A stretch of DNA of 46,541 nt from Flavobacteriales bacterium (GTDB lineage Bacteria; Bacteroidota; Bacteroidia; Flavobacteriales_D; Sanyastnellaceae): assembly GCA_947452685.1 (NCBI GenBank), contig CANGEF010000002.1:1-46541 (forward strand). The letters run 5' to 3'. The translations under genes were made by a program, and so were the position numbers. Below the pieces are notes generated by a model, which had not been told where the DNA came from, did no database searches, and saw nothing but the letters and a program-made list of their open reading frames with translations. Shown here one piece after another: positions 25,169 through 46,541 of the stretch (positions are counted from its first letter, which is position 1; each line of letters begins with the position of its first letter).

Positions 25169-25663
25169 ATGCAGAATTCCGAACTACTCAACTCAGAAGA
25201 AATAGAGCAAAAGTTAACGCGCATGGCTTATGAAATAGCCGAGCGTCACTACACAGAGAAGAATATAGTCTTTATTGGTATTGAAGAAAACGGAGCTGCT
25301 GTTTCGAAAAGACTCTTTGAATTGGTGAAAGAAATTGTGACTATACCTTGTGAAATCAGTAGCATTCAACTTTCAAAAGACCACCCCATTGGAAGTGCAA
25401 AACTTTCATCTCCCCTTTCACTCAAAAACAAATGTGTTGTACTCATAGATGATGTCTTCAACTCTGGAAGCACACTTATGCACGCCGCATCATTCCTTGT
25501 TTCGCAAGATATTCATCGCCTAACTACAGCGGTGTTAGTGGAACGAAAGCACCGAAGATTTCCCATCAAAGCGGACTTCGTTGGATTGAAATTGTCGACC
25601 ACACTGAAGGAACATGTGACTGTGAGTATGGACGGAAAAAATTCTTCCGTGACGATTCGTTAA
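25169..25663 (+). CDS. Phosphoribosyltransferase (PyrR-like)
   Basis: PRPP-binding motif CVVLIDDVFNSGSTLMHA; PyrR-like C-terminus (AVLVERKHRRFPIKADFVGLKLSTTLKEHVTV). Confidence 0.88.
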   Translation: MQNSELLNSEEIEQKLTRMAYEIAERHYTEKNIVFIGIEENGAAVSKRLFELVKEIVTIPCEISSIQLSKDHPIGSAKLSSPLSLKNKCVVLIDDVFNSGSTLMHAASFLVSQDIHRLTTAVLVERKHRRFPIKADFVGLKLSTTLKEHVTVSMDGKNSSVTIR

Positions 25664-27942
25664 TTTAACTCGAAGACGAAATTTATCATGTAGTTTCTTC
25701 CCGCTTGCGGATAGTAAAATCGCTCTGTTACAGGGCTTCCATATATGTATGAATAAGCGTATCCGTTGCTCGAATACATTCGATTCAAAACATTGTTTGC
25801 CCAAAAAGTAATCTTCATCGAAGAGCCGTTTGCTCTTTTTTCAGTCCACTGAATTCCCATATCGCTGACTGCAAACGCTGTTAAAACAGCACTGCTACTT
25901 CCCGTATTATCCAGGTGTTGCTTTCCTACAAACTTCTCATTGAACAAAAGATTCAATTGTCTTCTTTTCCATTCCGTTGACAACATCTTGTAATCTGCAT
26001 TCAAAGCTGCAATCATATTCGGACTAAAAGCAATATCGGTAGTACCGCGCGATACAACTTCTTCAGCATACGTATCGTAATTGAAAACACGCTCGTTAAA
26101 ATCTAAAATTTTGTTTTCGCTTAACGTAATGTTTCCACCAACTTTCAATTTTCGTGAAAGATTTGCTGAAGCACTAAACTCAATTCCCTTTCTGTAAGAC
26201 TTAGCAACATTGGTTCTCAGCGGAGCACCCACATCGTTCAAGGCTCCTGTTAAAACAAGTTGATTGGTGTAATTCATTATATATGCATTGACATCGAAAA
26301 GAATTTTCTTCCCATTTCCAAAATGAAGTCCAGCCTCATAATCGGTCATGTATTCATTCTTCGGAAAATTTCCAGGTGCAGCATCCACATAATCACTTCT
26401 GTTCGGCTCTTTGCCTGAATGTGCAACAGATGCATAAACAGAAAAAGATTTACCTATGAAATAACGCAAACCAATTTTCGGATTCAAGAATTTACTCGTC
26501 ACATTTACGTCATATGAACGTTGATCGTTGTCTACGCCTTTCGTGTTGTATGCTACATAGCGGGCTTGAATATCTGCATTCACAATGAATTTCTCTGGAA
26601 CAAATGCCCATTCCATTTTTGAAAATGCATTCACATCGTATTTGTCTGATTGACCGTAATAATATTGATGATCGACTACAAAAATTAACGGGTCTCCAGT
26701 GGCAATGACTCTTCCGTAATGCTGACCGTTGTAGTGGTTCGCGCCAACTCCGAAAGTACTCGTGAAATTATTTTTCTTGAAAACATACGAACCGGTAACA
26801 CCATAAAAATTGTTATTCAACCATCTACGCGTAACCAAATTTGTAGTGTTAATGGTGTCTCCGTTGATTATATTCGGAAGCATGTTGTAACTGGCTACTT
26901 CCTGATCAACTTTAAACTGCTCGAAATATCCTTGTCCGTGCGTGAAGTGAAATGCGGTTCTGAATTCATGCGTTGCGCCATTTTTTTTCTTCGAAGAAAA
27001 ATAATGCGCTTGCGCGTGATGCTGCGCGTAGTTGTCTATTTCATTTTCGTAGAGATAGGCGTTGTACGTTCTTCCTGAATTCAACAAATTGTTAATGTCG
27101 GCTTGCGAAGAACCATTGCGTGCGGCAAAAGCTAGAATGTCTGCAGTGGTGCCGTAAAGTTTTTCGAACGGTGTTCCGTTCCACGCTTGGTAGGTATTTT
27201 CCTTTCCACCAAAAACAAAAAACGTTAATTCCTTCGAACGATTTTCTTCCTGAAGAATATTCAATTTTCCCTTCGTGAAGTAGGAAAATAATTTTGTCTC
27301 TGCGCGATCTATGTATCCCTTTGACGCAATACTACTCATTCTCGCGTTCAACTCGAACTTCTTTCCAATCTTACTTCCCAATTCCAATGTTGCTTTCGTA
27401 GCACCAAAAGAACCAATACCATATTTTATCCGAACGAAATTCTTTTCCAAATGTGCATCGGTATCTATGTGTATGCTTCCACCGAAAGAACCTGTTCCGT
27501 TCGCCGAAGTTCCTATTCCGCGTTGAATTTGAATGTTCGAACTGGAAGACGCTAAGTCAGGCGTGTTCACCCAAAACACTTGCTGACTCTCAGGATCATT
27601 GAGTGGAACGCCATTGATGGAAACGTTCACGCGCGTGGGATCACTTCCGCGGATCCACAAACCTGTGTATCCAATTCCATTTCCAGCATCTGAAGTAACG
27701 GTCAACGAAGGCGTAAATCTTAAAAGAAAAGGAAGATCAACACCTGTGTTAATCTTTTCAATGTCCTTCGGCTGAAGGTTTGTCAATGCGAAAGGAGCGG
27801 TGTTATTCGCCGACCAAACATCGCGAATACTCACAGCGTCGAGCACAAAATTTGGAACAACCGTCGTGTCTATTTTTTCTTGCGCAAATAAACTTGACGC
27901 AACAAAAAGCGCAGCACAAACAAAAATAATTTTCTTAAACAT
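25660..27942 (-). CDS. TonB-dependent receptor, putative thiamin-related outer-membrane transporter
   Basis: Plug domain (VDLPFLLRFTPSLTVTSDAGNGIGYTGLWIRGSDPTRVNVSINGVPLNDPESQ) and beta-barrel; ATG at 27942 (MFKKIIFVCAALFVASSLFAQ). Preceded by a TPP riboswitch. Confidence 0.92.
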   Translation of the reverse strand: MFKKIIFVCAALFVASSLFAQEKIDTTVVPNFVLDAVSIRDVWSANNTAPFALTNLQPKDIEKINTGVDLPFLLRFTPSLTVTSDAGNGIGYTGLWIRGSDPTRVNVSINGVPLNDPESQQVFWVNTPDLASSSSNIQIQRGIGTSANGTGSFGGSIHIDTDAHLEKNFVRIKYGIGSFGATKATLELGSKIGKKFELNARMSSIASKGYIDRAETKLFSYFTKGKLNILQEENRSKELTFFVFGGKENTYQAWNGTPFEKLYGTTADILAFAARNGSSQADINNLLNSGRTYNAYLYENEIDNYAQHHAQAHYFSSKKKNGATHEFRTAFHFTHGQGYFEQFKVDQEVASYNMLPNIINGDTINTTNLVTRRWLNNNFYGVTGSYVFKKNNFTSTFGVGANHYNGQHYGRVIATGDPLIFVVDHQYYYGQSDKYDVNAFSKMEWAFVPEKFIVNADIQARYVAYNTKGVDNDQRSYDVNVTSKFLNPKIGLRYFIGKSFSVYASVAHSGKEPNRSDYVDAAPGNFPKNEYMTDYEAGLHFGNGKKILFDVNAYIMNYTNQLVLTGALNDVGAPLRTNVAKSYRKGIEFSASANLSRKLKVGGNITLSENKILDFNERVFNYDTYAEEVVSRGTTDIAFSPNMIAALNADYKMLSTEWKRRQLNLLFNEKFVGKQHLDNTGSSSAVLTAFAVSDMGIQWTEKRANGSSMKITFWANNVLNRMYSSNGYAYSYIYGSPVTERFYYPQAGRNYMINFVFELN

Positions 27943-27965
27943 GTCTTTTAATTTATGCGCACGAC

Positions 27966-28081
27966 AGGGGTTGCGGTGCACGTTGTTCATCTTTTCCTTG
28001 GCGGCATTACCCGCCCAGGTTCCTCTTGTTCTGAAACAAGAAGGGTCTAATCTCAGCCATTTTTTTTCGAATGGCACCCCT
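27966..28081 (-). promoter_or_regulatory. TPP riboswitch (THI element)
   Basis: Minus strand: AGGGGTGCC...GGCTGAGATTAGACCC...GAACCTGGGCGGGTAATGCC...ACCGCAACCCCT; P1 pairing AGGGGT/ACCCCT closes the element. Confidence 0.95.
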
Positions 28082-29049: not shown

Positions 29050-29741
29050 AATTTCAACTGTTCACCAACGAGCACTTTTTTATTATTGGCTTAACGATTT
29101 TCCTCTCACTTTTTTTTGTTTGGGTTGGAAGGAAATACGATAAATCGCGGGAAATACTGCGCTGGTTTTTCGGGATATTGTTGTTGACGAATATGGTCGT
29201 TTATCAGACGTATCGTTATCAAACAGGCTTGTGGGAAGTTCGTCACGATCTTCCTCTAGAGTTATGCAACCTTGCCAATATACTTGCAGCGTTAGCTCTG
29301 TTATTGAAGCGAAGGAGCATGGCGGAAATTGCATGGTGTTGGGTTATGACCGGCACATTGAATGGATTAATCACACCCGACTTCATGGGTGTATTTCCGG
29401 AAGTACCTTATGTCTCTTTCTTTATCGGACATGCAGGCTTAATCATCGCTACATCTTTTTTGGTTTTCGGAATGAAATTGTATCCGGAAAAAGGATCATG
29501 GTTGCGTGTTGTTCTTGCGTCACAAATTTATTTCGCAGTTGCCTTTTCAGTCAATAAAATTATCGGCAGCAATTACGGATACCTCATGCACAAACCCGAT
29601 GGCGGCAGCGCCATGGATTTCTTCGGTCCTTATCCGTATTATTTAATCACGCTCGAATGTTTGGGAGCGTTGTTGTTTTTCTTGGTGTTGTTGCCGTTTA
29701 GGAAGAAAAAAATGAGGGCAAAGAATCTCAATTTACAATGA
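29046..29741 (+). CDS. YwaF/TIGR02206 family integral membrane protein
   Basis: Six or more TM helices, LPLELCNLANI, WCWVMTGTLNGLITPD; ATGA overlap with rsgA. Confidence 0.8.
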   Translation: MKFQLFTNEHFFIIGLTIFLSLFFVWVGRKYDKSREILRWFFGILLLTNMVVYQTYRYQTGLWEVRHDLPLELCNLANILAALALLLKRRSMAEIAWCWVMTGTLNGLITPDFMGVFPEVPYVSFFIGHAGLIIATSFLVFGMKLYPEKGSWLRVVLASQIYFAVAFSVNKIIGSNYGYLMHKPDGGSAMDFFGPYPYYLITLECLGALLFFLVLLPFRKKKMRAKNLNLQ

Positions 29742-30643
29742 AAAAAATAATCATACTCGCTGGTGCGACAGGAAATTTAGGTGGTAAAATAGCAACTGCT
29801 TTATTAGCGAAAGGCGCAGAGGTCAGAGCAATCGTTCGACACGAAACTGATGCGATAAAAATAAAAAACTTAGAAGAAAAAGGTGTCTTAGTCTTTCGAG
29901 TTGATACGAGTAGTAAATCTGAAATTTCAAAACATTGTGCAGGTGCACACTGCATGGTTTCTGCGCTAGCTGGATTAAGAGAAACGGTTATAGATGCTCA
30001 AAAAGTATTTCTAGACGCAGCGGTTGAAGCCGGAGTTCCAAGATTTATTCCTAGCGACTACTCCAGTGATTTTACAAATCTCGTAAAGGGACAAAACAGA
30101 AATTTAGATTTCAGAAGAGAGTTCCACACGTATCTCGATTCGAAACCCATTCAAGCAACTACGATTTTTAACGGACCATTTATGGATTTGTTAACCACCG
30201 ACATGCCTTTGATACTTTTTAAACAAAAACGAATTCTGTGCTGGGGAAATCCAGATCAAATTGTAGAGTTCACTACCACCTTTAACGTGGCTGACTTCAC
30301 CGCTGAAGCGGCCCTCGACAGCAGCACTCCAAGATTTTTACGAATTGCTGGTGACCGACTTTCTTGCAACGACTTTGTGAAACTCCTTTCAGAAATTACC
30401 AACGAAAAATATAAATTATTCAGACCTGGAGGTATTGGTCTTCTGAATACTGTTATCGCATTAACACGATTCTTTTCACCCTCTAAAAATGAACTTTATC
30501 CTGCTTGGCAAGGAATGCAGTATATGCGTGACATGATGGAAGGAAGAATAATATTCCAAGAATATGACAACGACAGATATTCAAACGTCAATTGGACTTC
30601 TGCTAAAGAATTTTTAATTCAAGAAAAAATAGACGCGAAGTAG
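29738..30643 (+). CDS. NmrA-like NAD(P)-binding protein
   Basis: Rossmann IILAGATGNLGGKIATALLAKGAEVRAIVR; VPRFIPSDYSSDF; ATGA overlap with preceding gene. Confidence 0.87.
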   Translation: MKKIIILAGATGNLGGKIATALLAKGAEVRAIVRHETDAIKIKNLEEKGVLVFRVDTSSKSEISKHCAGAHCMVSALAGLRETVIDAQKVFLDAAVEAGVPRFIPSDYSSDFTNLVKGQNRNLDFRREFHTYLDSKPIQATTIFNGPFMDLLTTDMPLILFKQKRILCWGNPDQIVEFTTTFNVADFTAEAALDSSTPRFLRIAGDRLSCNDFVKLLSEITNEKYKLFRPGGIGLLNTVIALTRFFSPSKNELYPAWQGMQYMRDMMEGRIIFQEYDNDRYSNVNWTSAKEFLIQEKIDAK

Positions 30644-36325: not shown

Positions 36326-36398
36326 GATCTCGTAGCTCAGCTGGTAGAGCAATACACTTTTAATGTATGGGCCCTGGGTTCGAATCCCAGCGGGATCA
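36326..36398 (+). tRNA. tRNA-Lys (UUU)
   Basis: Cloverleaf: GATCTCG/CGGGATC acceptor, ATACA-CTTTTAA-TGTAT anticodon arm, CTGGG-TTCGAAT-CCCAG T arm; CCA not encoded. Confidence 0.97.
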
Positions 36399-36406
36399 CA
36401 AAACAA

Positions 36407-36438
36407 AAAACCTCTCAAGAAATTTGAGAGGTTTTTTT
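36407..36438. terminator. Intrinsic terminator between tRNA-Lys and SPFH gene
   Basis: ACCTCTCAA-GAAA-TTGAGAGGT with flanking A and T tracts. Confidence 0.9.
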
Positions 36439-36458
36439 TACGCCGAAACTTTTTCCAA

Positions 36459-37244
36459 TTAAGGATTGCCATCTGTGTTAATGAGCACATTGCCCACATT
36501 GGGACTTGTGATTATTATTTTCGCATTCGGCGAATTCGTTAAACTTCTTAGCGCTTCAATTTGATTGTACTGCAATTGCTTCTCTGTAAGGGAAGAATTA
36601 ATTATGTCTTGCGCCTGCTTAACGGCAGTTGCTTCAATGATCATTCTTTCGGCTTCTTTCTTTTGCTTTTCAATTACAAATTCCATTTGAAGAGCTGCTT
36701 GCTCTGCCATAACCTTGTTTTCAATGGCCTTCATCATTTGATCTGGAAGATCAATGTCTTTCAACAATACTGCGTCTACCACAAAGCCGTGAACCTCAAT
36801 GTGCATCGATAGTTCATCGAAAATAGCTTTTTCAATTTTCAATCGCTCTGTCGCATACAACTCCTTCGCTGAATAACGAGCAGAAATCTCTCGTGCCGTG
36901 GCTCTGAAATTACTTAGAACAATAATCTCTTCGTAATTTCTTCCAAATTGTGTGTAGATAGACTGTGCTCTTGAAGGATCTATGTGATAAAGCAAGGTTA
37001 TTTCTGCTTTAACACTCAACCCCTCTTTCGTTGGCAAAGGCAATACATTGAATTTCTCAATCGTTCGGGTGTCCATCTTAATCACCTTCGCAATAAACGG
37101 ATTGAAAAGCACGGGGCCACCCTTGTAGGTTTTCGTGGTTAATTTACCTAAGCGTTGCTTAATGGCTGTTTCGCCCGGTCTAACCACGGTGCACGCTGGT
37201 AGCAAAACAATTGCAGCCAGAAAAGGAATAAGAAGTTTTTTCAT
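36459..37244 (-). CDS. SPFH/prohibitin-family protein with lipoprotein signal
   Basis: MKKLLIPFLAAIVLLPACTVVRPGETAIKQRLGKL...; prohibitin-like core. True ATG at 37244; the ORF-track extension to 37391 is antisense tRNA-Leu. Confidence 0.87.
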   Translation of the reverse strand: MKKLLIPFLAAIVLLPACTVVRPGETAIKQRLGKLTTKTYKGGPVLFNPFIAKVIKMDTRTIEKFNVLPLPTKEGLSVKAEITLLYHIDPSRAQSIYTQFGRNYEEIIVLSNFRATAREISARYSAKELYATERLKIEKAIFDELSMHIEVHGFVVDAVLLKDIDLPDQMMKAIENKVMAEQAALQMEFVIEKQKKEAERMIIEATAVKQAQDIINSSLTEKQLQYNQIEALRSLTNSPNAKIIITSPNVGNVLINTDGNP

Positions 37245-37292
37245 GTCGCTATTTTTTATTGAACGAAAGTAGTGAGAAAGAAATGAGATGCG

Positions 37293-37300
37293 TACATTTG
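37293..37300 (+). promoter_or_regulatory. -7 promoter element upstream of tRNA-Leu
   Basis: TACATTTG (TAnnTTTG), 8 nt before the tRNA. Confidence 0.55.
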
Positions 37301-37308
37301 CACTCTTA

Positions 37309-37390
37309 GCCCTGGTGGTGAAATTGGTAGACACGCCATCTTGAGGGGGTGGTTCCGTAAGGTGTGCTGGTTCGAGTCCAGTCCAGGGCA
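37309..37390 (+). tRNA. tRNA-Leu (GAG)
   Basis: GCCCTGG/CCAGGGC acceptor, anticodon arm CCATC-TTGAGGG-GGTGG, long variable arm, CTGG-TTCGAGT-CCAG T arm. Confidence 0.95.
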
Positions 37391-37392
37391 CA

Positions 37393-42416: not shown

Positions 42417-43826
42417 TTGAAGCACAAGGGAATTATATTTTCATACGTAGCCGCAGATTGGATTGCAGCAGGATTGTCTTGGACAAGTCTTTATTTTTTG
42501 CGGAAAAAATTTGAATCGATTAAATACGGATACGACCTCGGCTTTCACACGGATTCGAATTTCATTGCAGCACTTCTTTTTATTCCTTTGGCGTGGATCT
42601 GCTTTTACGCCATGTGGGGCATGTATTCCGATGTTTTAAGAAGACACCGCTTGCGAGAGATCGGTCAGGTGCTAGCCACCTCTTTAATTGGTAACATTGT
42701 TATTTTCTTTTTGTTTTTGCTCGACGACGAACTTCCTAATTACAATTACTATTACACCACCTTCAGTTTTCTTTTGCTGGCGCATTTGAGTTTAACGTTA
42801 ATTCTTCGATTGTCCATTACTTCGCGGACAGTAAAGAAAATTCAGTCGAGAAAATGGGGTTTCCCTACGGTTATTGTTGGTGGAAACGCACGCGCTTTGA
42901 ACCTTGTTGATGAGATTAACGCATTAAAAAAATCTCCCGGATTTTTATTTAAAGGTTACTTGAAAATTAATGGGGCCGACGAACAACTTTCCTCACGATT
43001 ACCGCTCTTTGGAAAATATCCAAGCCTTCCTTCCATCATTGAAAAGTACCAGATTGAGGAGGTTATTCTTTCTGTTGAAAGTGGCGACCATAAAGAATTG
43101 GAAGTCATTTTAGCGCTGTTGGAAAACTACAATGTTCGGATCAATATTATTCCAGACACTTTCGATATTTTATCTGGAAATGTGAAGATGACCAGTGTTT
43201 TCGGTGTTCCTCTTATTCGATTGAATACGCTATTGATGCCGAGCTGGCAGTTTAGTATCAAGAGAATCATTGATATTGTTTTCAGCGCGTATGCATTAAT
43301 TATTTTGGCCCCTCTTCTAATTGTTATTGGGGTGCTCGTAAAGGCTACCTCTACGGGGCCCGTTTTCTTTTTTCAAGAGAGAATCGGAAGGAATGGAATT
43401 CCCTTTCAAATAATAAAATTCCGAAGCATGCGCCTTGATGCAGAGAAATCTGGTCCTCAGTTAAGTTCAACCAACGATTCACGCATTACTAAGATTGGGA
43501 AGATTTTGCGAAAAACTCGCCTCGATGAATTGCCACAATTCATTAACGTGCTTGCAGGAGATATGGCTCTTGTTGGCCCTCGACCCGAGCGCCAATTTTA
43601 CATTGATCAGATTTCTAAAATCAATCCGCATTACCACAAACTTCACCGCATTCGTCCGGGAATTACTTCATGGGGACAAGTGAAATACGGCTATGCAGAA
43701 AACGTAGAGCAAATGGTTCAACGTCTTCGCTACGACTTGTTGTATCTCGAAAACATGTCCTTAGCTATGGACATTAAAATTCTCTTTTACACGGTTGTGA
43801 TTGTGCTTAAAGGGAGTGGGAAGTAA
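42417..43826 (+). CDS. Exopolysaccharide biosynthesis polyprenyl glycosylphosphotransferase (undecaprenyl-phosphate sugar transferase)
   Basis: N-terminal TM helices, CoA-binding-like domain, C-terminal sugar transferase KRIIDIVFS...GPVFFFQERIGRNGIPFQIIKFRSM...RKTRLDELPQFINVLAGDMALVGPRPE. TTG start. Confidence 0.93.
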   Translation: MKHKGIIFSYVAADWIAAGLSWTSLYFLRKKFESIKYGYDLGFHTDSNFIAALLFIPLAWICFYAMWGMYSDVLRRHRLREIGQVLATSLIGNIVIFFLFLLDDELPNYNYYYTTFSFLLLAHLSLTLILRLSITSRTVKKIQSRKWGFPTVIVGGNARALNLVDEINALKKSPGFLFKGYLKINGADEQLSSRLPLFGKYPSLPSIIEKYQIEEVILSVESGDHKELEVILALLENYNVRINIIPDTFDILSGNVKMTSVFGVPLIRLNTLLMPSWQFSIKRIIDIVFSAYALIILAPLLIVIGVLVKATSTGPVFFFQERIGRNGIPFQIIKFRSMRLDAEKSGPQLSSTNDSRITKIGKILRKTRLDELPQFINVLAGDMALVGPRPERQFYIDQISKINPHYHKLHRIRPGITSWGQVKYGYAENVEQMVQRLRYDLLYLENMSLAMDIKILFYTVVIVLKGSGK

Positions 43827-45306
43827 GATCTAAAATTTCATTTGCCTTTTGCATATCGTTGTGTTGCATGCGATCGGTAACGTAATGCGCAACTTTGGTT
43901 CTTGTTAGTGCATGCAATTCCTCAACAGCCTTCGACGATTTCAACGGTCTTCTAAAGTCCAACCCTTGCGCGGCATTCAACAACTCTATAGCTAAAACTG
44001 ACTGAAGATTTTTAACGACTTGATAGCATTTCGTTGCGCCATTCGCACCCATGCTTACGTGATCTTCTTGACCGTTGCTGCTGTCTATGGTGTCTACACT
44101 TGAAGGTGTGCAAAGTTGTTTGTTCTGACTTACAATAGACGCTGCCGCGTATTGTGGAATCATGAAGCCGCTGTTCAGTCCAGCGTCTTTCACCAAGAAA
44201 GCGGGTAAACCGCGTTGACCTGAAATAAGTTTGTACGTTCTTCTTTCTGAAATGCTCGCTACTTCTGCTAAAGCAATGGCTAAAAAATCCATGCTTAAAG
44301 CCAACGGCTGACCGTGGAAATTTCCACCAGAAATGATTTGATTTTCTTCCGGAAAAATAATTGGATTGTCTGTTACCGCATTGATCTCGCGCTCCACAAT
44401 GGTAAGCACATATGCAATGGCGTCGTGCGAAGCACCCAACACTTGCGGAATGCAACGAAACGAATAGGGATCTTGAACGTGCGCTTTTTTCTGAACTTGA
44501 ATTTCACTTCCCTTCAATGCGTCTTGCATAGCAATGGCTACAATCTGCTGGCCTTCTTGATTTCTAACACGGTGTGTTAGATCAATGAACGGTTCAGGAC
44601 GTGCATCGAATGCATCTACAGACATGGCTGCAATGGTTATGGCTTTATCGAACAAATGTTCAGCGCGAATTAAATTCTCTACTGAATACGCCAACATGAA
44701 TTGTGTTCCGTTGATAAGCGCTAAACCTTCTTTCGATTGAAGCGCAATGGGCTTCAATCCCTCTTCTTTCAACACCTCGGCAGCATTGCGTTCGTATCCT
44801 TTGTAGATCACCTTCCCTTCACCAATTAACGGAAGACACAAGTGTGACAAGGGAGAAAGATCTCCGCTTGCTCCCAATGAACCTTGCGTGAAAACGATGG
44901 GTAAAATGTTTCGGTGATAAAATTCCAACAACAATTCAACGGTTGCCAATTGAACGCCGCTGTGTCCGTGCGACAAGCTCTTTGCTTTCAACACTAACAT
45001 TAAGCGAACAATTTCTTCGGGCACTTGATCGCCCATTCCGCACGCATGGGAACGAAGCAAATTGTTTTGAAGAAGATTTAAATCTTCCATGGAAATTTCG
45101 GTATTGCAAAGCGAACCGAAACCAGTATTGATTCCGTAAACCGGATTTTCGCTCGTCTCTAAATACGAGTCTAAAAAAGTTCTACATGCCTGAATTTTTT
45201 CCTTCGCCACATCGGAAAGTGAAACATTCGTTTCACCTGTTCTAACAGCAACTAGGTCGTTCAACACCCATTCTTCGTTTGGGCAAAGGATTAAATTATT
45301 ACGCAT
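43807..45306 (-). CDS. hutH: Histidine ammonia-lyase
   Basis: MIO-forming GSLGASGDLSPLSH, YGINTGFGSL, GGNFHGQPLA, DTIDSSNGQEDHVSMG. Confidence 0.95.
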   Translation of the reverse strand: MRNNLILCPNEEWVLNDLVAVRTGETNVSLSDVAKEKIQACRTFLDSYLETSENPVYGINTGFGSLCNTEISMEDLNLLQNNLLRSHACGMGDQVPEEIVRLMLVLKAKSLSHGHSGVQLATVELLLEFYHRNILPIVFTQGSLGASGDLSPLSHLCLPLIGEGKVIYKGYERNAAEVLKEEGLKPIALQSKEGLALINGTQFMLAYSVENLIRAEHLFDKAITIAAMSVDAFDARPEPFIDLTHRVRNQEGQQIVAIAMQDALKGSEIQVQKKAHVQDPYSFRCIPQVLGASHDAIAYVLTIVEREINAVTDNPIIFPEENQIISGGNFHGQPLALSMDFLAIALAEVASISERRTYKLISGQRGLPAFLVKDAGLNSGFMIPQYAAASIVSQNKQLCTPSSVDTIDSSNGQEDHVSMGANGATKCYQVVKNLQSVLAIELLNAAQGLDFRRPLKSSKAVEELHALTRTKVAHYVTDRMQHNDMQKANEILDLTSHSL

Positions 45307-45309
45307 AAA

Positions 45310-45768
45310 TTATTTGATCTTAAATACAATGGGCAAGGTCATGAACACACGTTTCGGCTCTCCGTTAAGTTTTCCCGGAGTAAAATCTTTTAGCGTTTTC
45401 ACCACACGCATTGCTTCTTTTCCGAGCACACTTCCTTAGTCGCCTTCAGGCTGACGTAAAATTTTTACGTTTGAAATTTCACCGTTTTTTTCAACCACAA
45501 ACTGAACATATACTCTTCCTTGAAAATCGTTTTCTAAACAGATTTGAGGGTAAATCATTGCGGCTGAAATATCTTTCATCATTTGCGTTTCACCTCCTGG
45601 ATACACGGGCATTACCTCAGGGTATACCAGCGGCTCTTCTCCCTGAACTCCTCCAATAACCGGAGGTGGCGGCGGAGGCGGTGGAACCGGATTTGGATCA
45701 GGTTGCGCAGCGCAATAAAAAGCACCCACAACAAACAAGAATGAAAAGATATATTTCACTATACCCAT
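45310..45768 (-). pseudogene. TonB-like C-terminal domain protein interrupted by an in-frame TAA
   Basis: ORF 45768->45436 ends ...QGRVYVQFVVEKNGEISNVKILRQPEGD*, and the same frame continues GSVLGKEAMRVVKTLKDFTPGKLNGEPKRVFMTLPIVFKIK* to 45310, completing a TonB C-terminal domain. Confidence 0.85.
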
Positions 45769-46541
45769 GATTCGCCTTTGTTCAGCTTAATGTCGTTAAC
45801 GAATTGCTTAATCTTTTGTTCGTCTTCTTTTTTGCAGACCAACAATGAAACGCCTGTGTCTACGACAATGTATCCGTTTAGTCCGTGAAGAACAACCAAC
45901 TTGTCGCTTCCCACGTGCACAACGCTGTCTGAACAGTTGTACAACATTACGTTTTCTCCCACTACTCCGTTGTTATGCTCATCAGAAGACAATTGTGTAT
46001 GAAGAGATCCCCAAGTTCCAAGGTCACTCCATCCGAAATCGCTTAATACCACATTCACATTTTTTGCTTTTTCCATAATACCGTAATCGATACTGATGTT
46101 TTCGCAACTGCTGTACATGTTGTTGATGAAAGCCATTTCTTCTGCTGTTCCGTACTTCCCTTTTCCTTCTTCGAACTGTGCATACATTTCTGGAAGATGT
46201 GATTGGAACGCTTTCATGATTGACTCAAGATTCCAAACGAAAATTCCAGAGTTCCAATAGAAGTCTCCACTTTCAATGAAGTCCTTCGCCAATTCTAAAT
46301 TCGGTTTCTCGGTGAAGGTTTTTACTTTCTTCACGCGATCGTTGTCTACGTCTTTCGCATCGGCCCATTGAATGTATCCATAACCGGTGTCGGGGCGTGT
46401 AGGCTTAATTCCAAGCGTTACGAGGTTACCCGATTTGTTCGCTTGATTCATGCTGATTTGAATGTCTTCAATGAACGAAGCTTCACGTGTGATAAGGTGA
46501 TCGCTTGGCGCAACGACGATGTTTGCATCGGGCGTGCGCTC
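45759..46541 (-). CDS. Mannose-1-phosphate guanylyltransferase, 5' end beyond the window
   Basis: Frame open to window edge: ERTPDANIVVAPSDHLITREASFIEDIQISMNQ...TLGIKPTRPDTGYGYIQ...FTEKPNLELAKDFIESGDFYWNSGIFVW...GWSDLGTWGSL. Confidence 0.93.
   Translation of the reverse strand, partial: ERTPDANIVVAPSDHLITREASFIEDIQISMNQANKSGNLVTLGIKPTRPDTGYGYIQWADAKDVDNDRVKKVKTFTEKPNLELAKDFIESGDFYWNSGIFVWNLESIMKAFQSHLPEMYAQFEEGKGKYGTAEEMAFINNMYSSCENISIDYGIMEKAKNVNVVLSDFGWSDLGTWGSLHTQLSSDEHNNGVVGENVMLYNCSDSVVHVGSDKLVVLHGLNGYIVVDTGVSLLVCKKEDEQKIKQFVNDIKLNKGESWV

Follow-up and report, generated by a model that had tools for sequence, protein, structure and literature searches.

The interrupted gene and its neighbours

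The analysed stretch of Flavobacteriales DNA (46,541 nucleotides, hereafter the window) carries, on its minus strand between two enzyme genes, a reading frame of 152 codons that runs from 45768 to 45310 and is open in translation except for a single in-frame TAA. Conceptual translation gives 110 residues ending in RQPEGD, the TAA, the residues GSVLGKEAMRVVKTLKDFTPGKLNGEPKRVFMTLPIVFKIK and a second TAA. The features of the locus are listed here.

45759..46541, minus strand: mannose-1-phosphate guanylyltransferase (ManC-like), the upstream gene, which runs off the contig end (PF00483 and PF22640)
45310..45768, minus strand: interrupted TonB_C-domain gene, 152-codon frame with its final TAA at 45310-45312 (translation; PF03544 across the stop; six same-genus orthologues)
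45439..45768, minus strand: truncated 110-codon ORF with a signal-peptide-like start and short proline stretch (both by eye) and the first half of TonB_C
45436..45438, minus strand: premature TAA; Leu (TTA twice, TTG twice, CTC) or Tyr (TAT) in orthologues (codon comparison)
45310..45435, minus strand: second half of TonB_C after the stop, 41 codons and the original stop codon, in frame (PF03544; nonsynonymous/synonymous balance as before the stop)
43807..45306, minus strand: histidine ammonia-lyase-type enzyme (HAL, an aromatic amino acid lyase), the intact downstream gene (PF00221, 623 bits)

The genes are tightly packed: the last codons of the ManC-like gene overlap the start of the TonB_C gene at 45759-45768, and HAL starts 3 bases past the original stop codon of the latter. 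HAL is 94-95% identical to the closest copies in the same genus. Some 1.1 kb separate the premature stop from the end of the contig, and the genome is a draft of 2.13 Mb (231 contigs, 96% complete). The closest named records are metagenome-assembled genomes (MAGs), mostly labelled Flavobacteriales or Bacteroidetes, whose isolate names suggest freshwater organisms. The locus is also present in the MAG record CAMCVP010000015.1 (HAL 95% identity), the title of which, Chryseobacterium gleum, looks wrong, and a HAL homologue from another genus of the family (G029:C64:1705-3129) was reported with one internal TGA.

With X at the position of the stop, the protein matches TonB_C (PF03544.19) with 54.3 bits over residues 71-151 and profile positions 3-79, the whole length of the domain. 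The part before the stop scores 27.5 bits by itself (profile 3-39) and the 41 residues beyond it 25.4 bits (profile 42-79), so that the bridged protein and each half alone all exceed the curated cut-off of 24.6 bits. A chance open frame after the stop is ruled out by the independent match of the 41-residue tail. The original prediction was exact in placing an in-frame TAA here without a frame change, and it read the residues beyond correctly as the second half of the domain; the search of the bridged 152-residue translation that it had proposed yields the match given above. A second intact copy or duplicate was not found in the genome, and the DNA is single copy.

By eye, the protein consists of a signal-peptide-like N-terminus, a short proline stretch, a linker of about 20-45 residues and the TonB_C domain. 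In this architecture it resembles the small TonB_C (PF03544) proteins of Bacteroidota, from which it differs in that a stop halves its domain; the same genome encodes another small protein in which TonB_C is combined with such a start (C179:2858-3097, 218-aa frame). With the TonB energy transducer, which works with ExbB and ExbD, it shares homology in the C-terminal domain, and phmmer matches it weakly (E 0.04-0.6) to TonB domains of solved structure. It differs in having just 152 residues and a short linker, and in being encoded between ManC and HAL. TonB_C occurs at seven other places in the genome. ExbB-family genes reside on contigs C18 and C41, away from the window gene, and the best TonB candidate is a 305-residue frame (TonB_C at C18:15210-15449) that has an ExbB-family gene (C18:17585-17929) some 2 kb away. 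The window protein is thus probably not the energy transducer of the cell, and the earlier label ‘TonB-like’ is better replaced by one that describes a small protein carrying a TonB_C domain behind a signal-peptide-like start. A literature search on TonB_C in Bacteroidetes found no paper. Two further frames of 397 and 394 aa (L001 and L003, G000:C22), which lie next to each other and encode similar proteins, combine a C-terminal TonB_C with a domain that by eye looks like the formylglycine-generating-enzyme type.

Orthologues and probable repeated loss in the genus

The comparison set comprised eight other genomes of the genus, one genome per species. Six of them (G001, G002, G003, G005, G007 and G008) encode a full-length orthologue in the same place between ManC and HAL. 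At the site of the stop the codon is TTA in G003 and G007, TTG in G002 and G005, CTC in G008 and TAT in G001, the Tyr codon belonging to the most distant orthologue; all six have a sense codon there and stay open as far as the downstream stop, and none (0/6) has a stop at the orthologous site. To judge from these codons, Leu, encoded by TTA or TTG, is almost certain to have been the ancestral state, and since TTA is one base away from TAA a TTA to TAA change would be the simplest origin of the stop. The codon comparison, which the original prediction had called for, thereby argues against its example of a CAA to TAA mutation, as no orthologue has Gln at this site; nor do any intact homologues end naturally at RQPEGD, the finding that it had named as counter-evidence, for all of them reach the second stop. 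An unusually fast or foreign allele was considered and rejected because the synonymous divergence of the gene (1.1-1.8) falls inside the span of values seen in other window genes; its dN of 0.12-0.15 is high, not extreme, by the same comparison.

The remaining two genomes, G004 and G006, retain the order of ManC and HAL, and their TonB_C gene is reduced by an in-frame internal deletion to the following remnants.

L169:2985-3104 (G004): 37-codon remnant between ManC and HAL
L171:890-1009 (G006): 37-codon remnant between ManC and HAL

The frame that remains, MGI(V/M)KYIFSTLFVLNALFSAGQPKRVFMTLPIVFKLS, fuses the first ~23 codons in frame to the last 14, and most of the domain is gone. A short AACC stands at both edges of the deletion in some relatives, which suggests that the deletion may have arisen by slippage. 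When a tree of ManC and HAL, most forks of which are weak, is labelled with intact and broken states at least two changes are needed, and by this reckoning the gene would have been inactivated at least twice within the genus. Broken separately in the window genome and in G004 and G006, the gene appears to be dispensable in the genus.

Age of the stop and competing explanations

Among codons unique to the window gene the ratio of nonsynonymous to synonymous changes is 6:12 in the part preceding the stop and 5:9 in the part that follows (Fisher p = 1). Constraint after the stop equal to that before it means either that the stop is recent or that it is a one-base consensus error. When the 41 codons beyond the stop were given about 15 neutral substitutions or more, simulations rarely ended with five or fewer amino-acid changes and no new stop (P about 0.01). 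The whole branch would be expected to accumulate roughly 40 neutral substitutions, a figure extrapolated from the 9 silent changes at some 28 silent sites. By this estimate constraint would have lasted through most of the history of the lineage, and the stop would have arisen within roughly the last third of the branch, probably much later. From the preserved downstream frame the original prediction had deduced either a recent event or continued translation of the downstream part; the equal ratios agree with the former, and for the latter there is no positive sign of readthrough.

We favour, with a probability of about 0.72, a recent nonsense substitution that truncated a non-essential small TonB_C-domain protein and gave rise to a young pseudogene. 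A TTA (Leu) codon would have changed to TAA recently in this Flavobacteriales lineage, and translation would now stop there. The predicted 110-residue product is missing the second half of the TonB_C fold, for which reason it is likely to be non-functional; the neighbouring HAL and ManC presumably continue to work. This was one of three readings initially put forward, and it draws on the sense codons of the orthologues, the conserved downstream frame and the loss in two sister genomes. Of the other two, assembly error retains some weight and readthrough very little.

The most serious competitor, which we consider unlikely, is that a wrong base entered the metagenome consensus, through sequencing, through assembly or from a minority strain, and that the population has an intact gene. 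The draft is fragmented, the site is close to a contig end, and the TAA is one base away from the TTA of two relatives; moreover, the frame beyond the stop is free of decay, which would be expected equally of an error, a minor strain variant or a recent mutation. Against this, the consensus looks clean, as the conserved window genes contain no other interior stop in comparison with G003 (about 33 genes, 13,540 aa) or with G005 (34 genes, 13,099 aa), nor in the fewer genes compared with G007 and G002. That check covered window genes against the genes of relatives, and the remaining stops that it reported fall at start-site extensions. That two sister genomes carry a separate lesion of this gene also makes a real loss in the window genome unsurprising.

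It is highly improbable that stop readthrough or stop-codon reassignment still yields the complete product of 152 residues. The constraint on the frame beyond the stop would be compatible with it, and in a survey many in-frame stops within prokaryotic genes were found to keep signs of selection, which suggested frequent readthrough (PMC7918605). The same survey describes many such cases as short-lived and names TGA, not TAA, as the leaky codon (PMC7918605), and the window stop, a TAA found at this site in the window genome only, fits the short-lived kind. TAA terminates 25 of the 37 window genes and the genome has three release-factor domain matches. A change of the genetic code was rejected: it would require TAA as a sense codon in many genes together with a matching tRNA, whereas the window holds this single interior stop with no other conserved gene in need of TAA as sense, and a UUA-anticodon tRNA is absent from the 21 tRNA matches, an incomplete set.

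Comparably improbable is the idea that the reading frame between ManC and HAL owes its retention chiefly to the flow of ribosomes into the HAL start, so that lesions which keep or restart this flow would be tolerated because the TonB_C protein itself is dispensable. Expression in two pieces, with a truncated protein or a restart product that keeps the function or the flow into HAL, is the least credible: an in-frame GTG (45427-45429) and ATG (45409-45411) lie less than 30 bases past the TAA, and the deletion in G004 and G006 is likewise in frame and retains a small ORF leading to the HAL start, which would be expected if HAL benefits from translation through this place, but a fragment from either codon would have no signal peptide, relatives have start-like codons there too, so that the stop created nothing special, and a third of random deletions are in frame.

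The gene, known here from an assembly consensus, shares with nonsense-mutation pseudogenes of bacteria a single in-frame stop, a frame intact beyond it, intact orthologues and loss of the gene in other relatives, and we found no feature in which it differs. For annotation, it is best marked as a pseudogene or a possible assembly error rather than as a recoding event. Repeated loss of this TonB_C gene from its place between ManC and HAL within a single genus offers a modest clue as to which TonB_C proteins of Bacteroidota are dispensable; beyond annotation the significance is little.

Variable stretches elsewhere in the window

Two further stretches stand out by their similarity to G007. Positions 29738-30640 are 98.7% identical to it at the DNA level, with no match in the examined stretches of the other three relatives, and over positions 25663-27990 the identity is 93% with G007 and about 75% with the others. 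Taken together, these identities suggest a recent exchange between the window and G007 lineages. An ORF at 36462-37244, with a match in G007 alone of four relatives, has a tRNA Lys gene (36326-36398) on one side and a tRNA Leu gene (37309-37390) on the other, and the region 36326-37391 has the look of a variable site between tRNAs.
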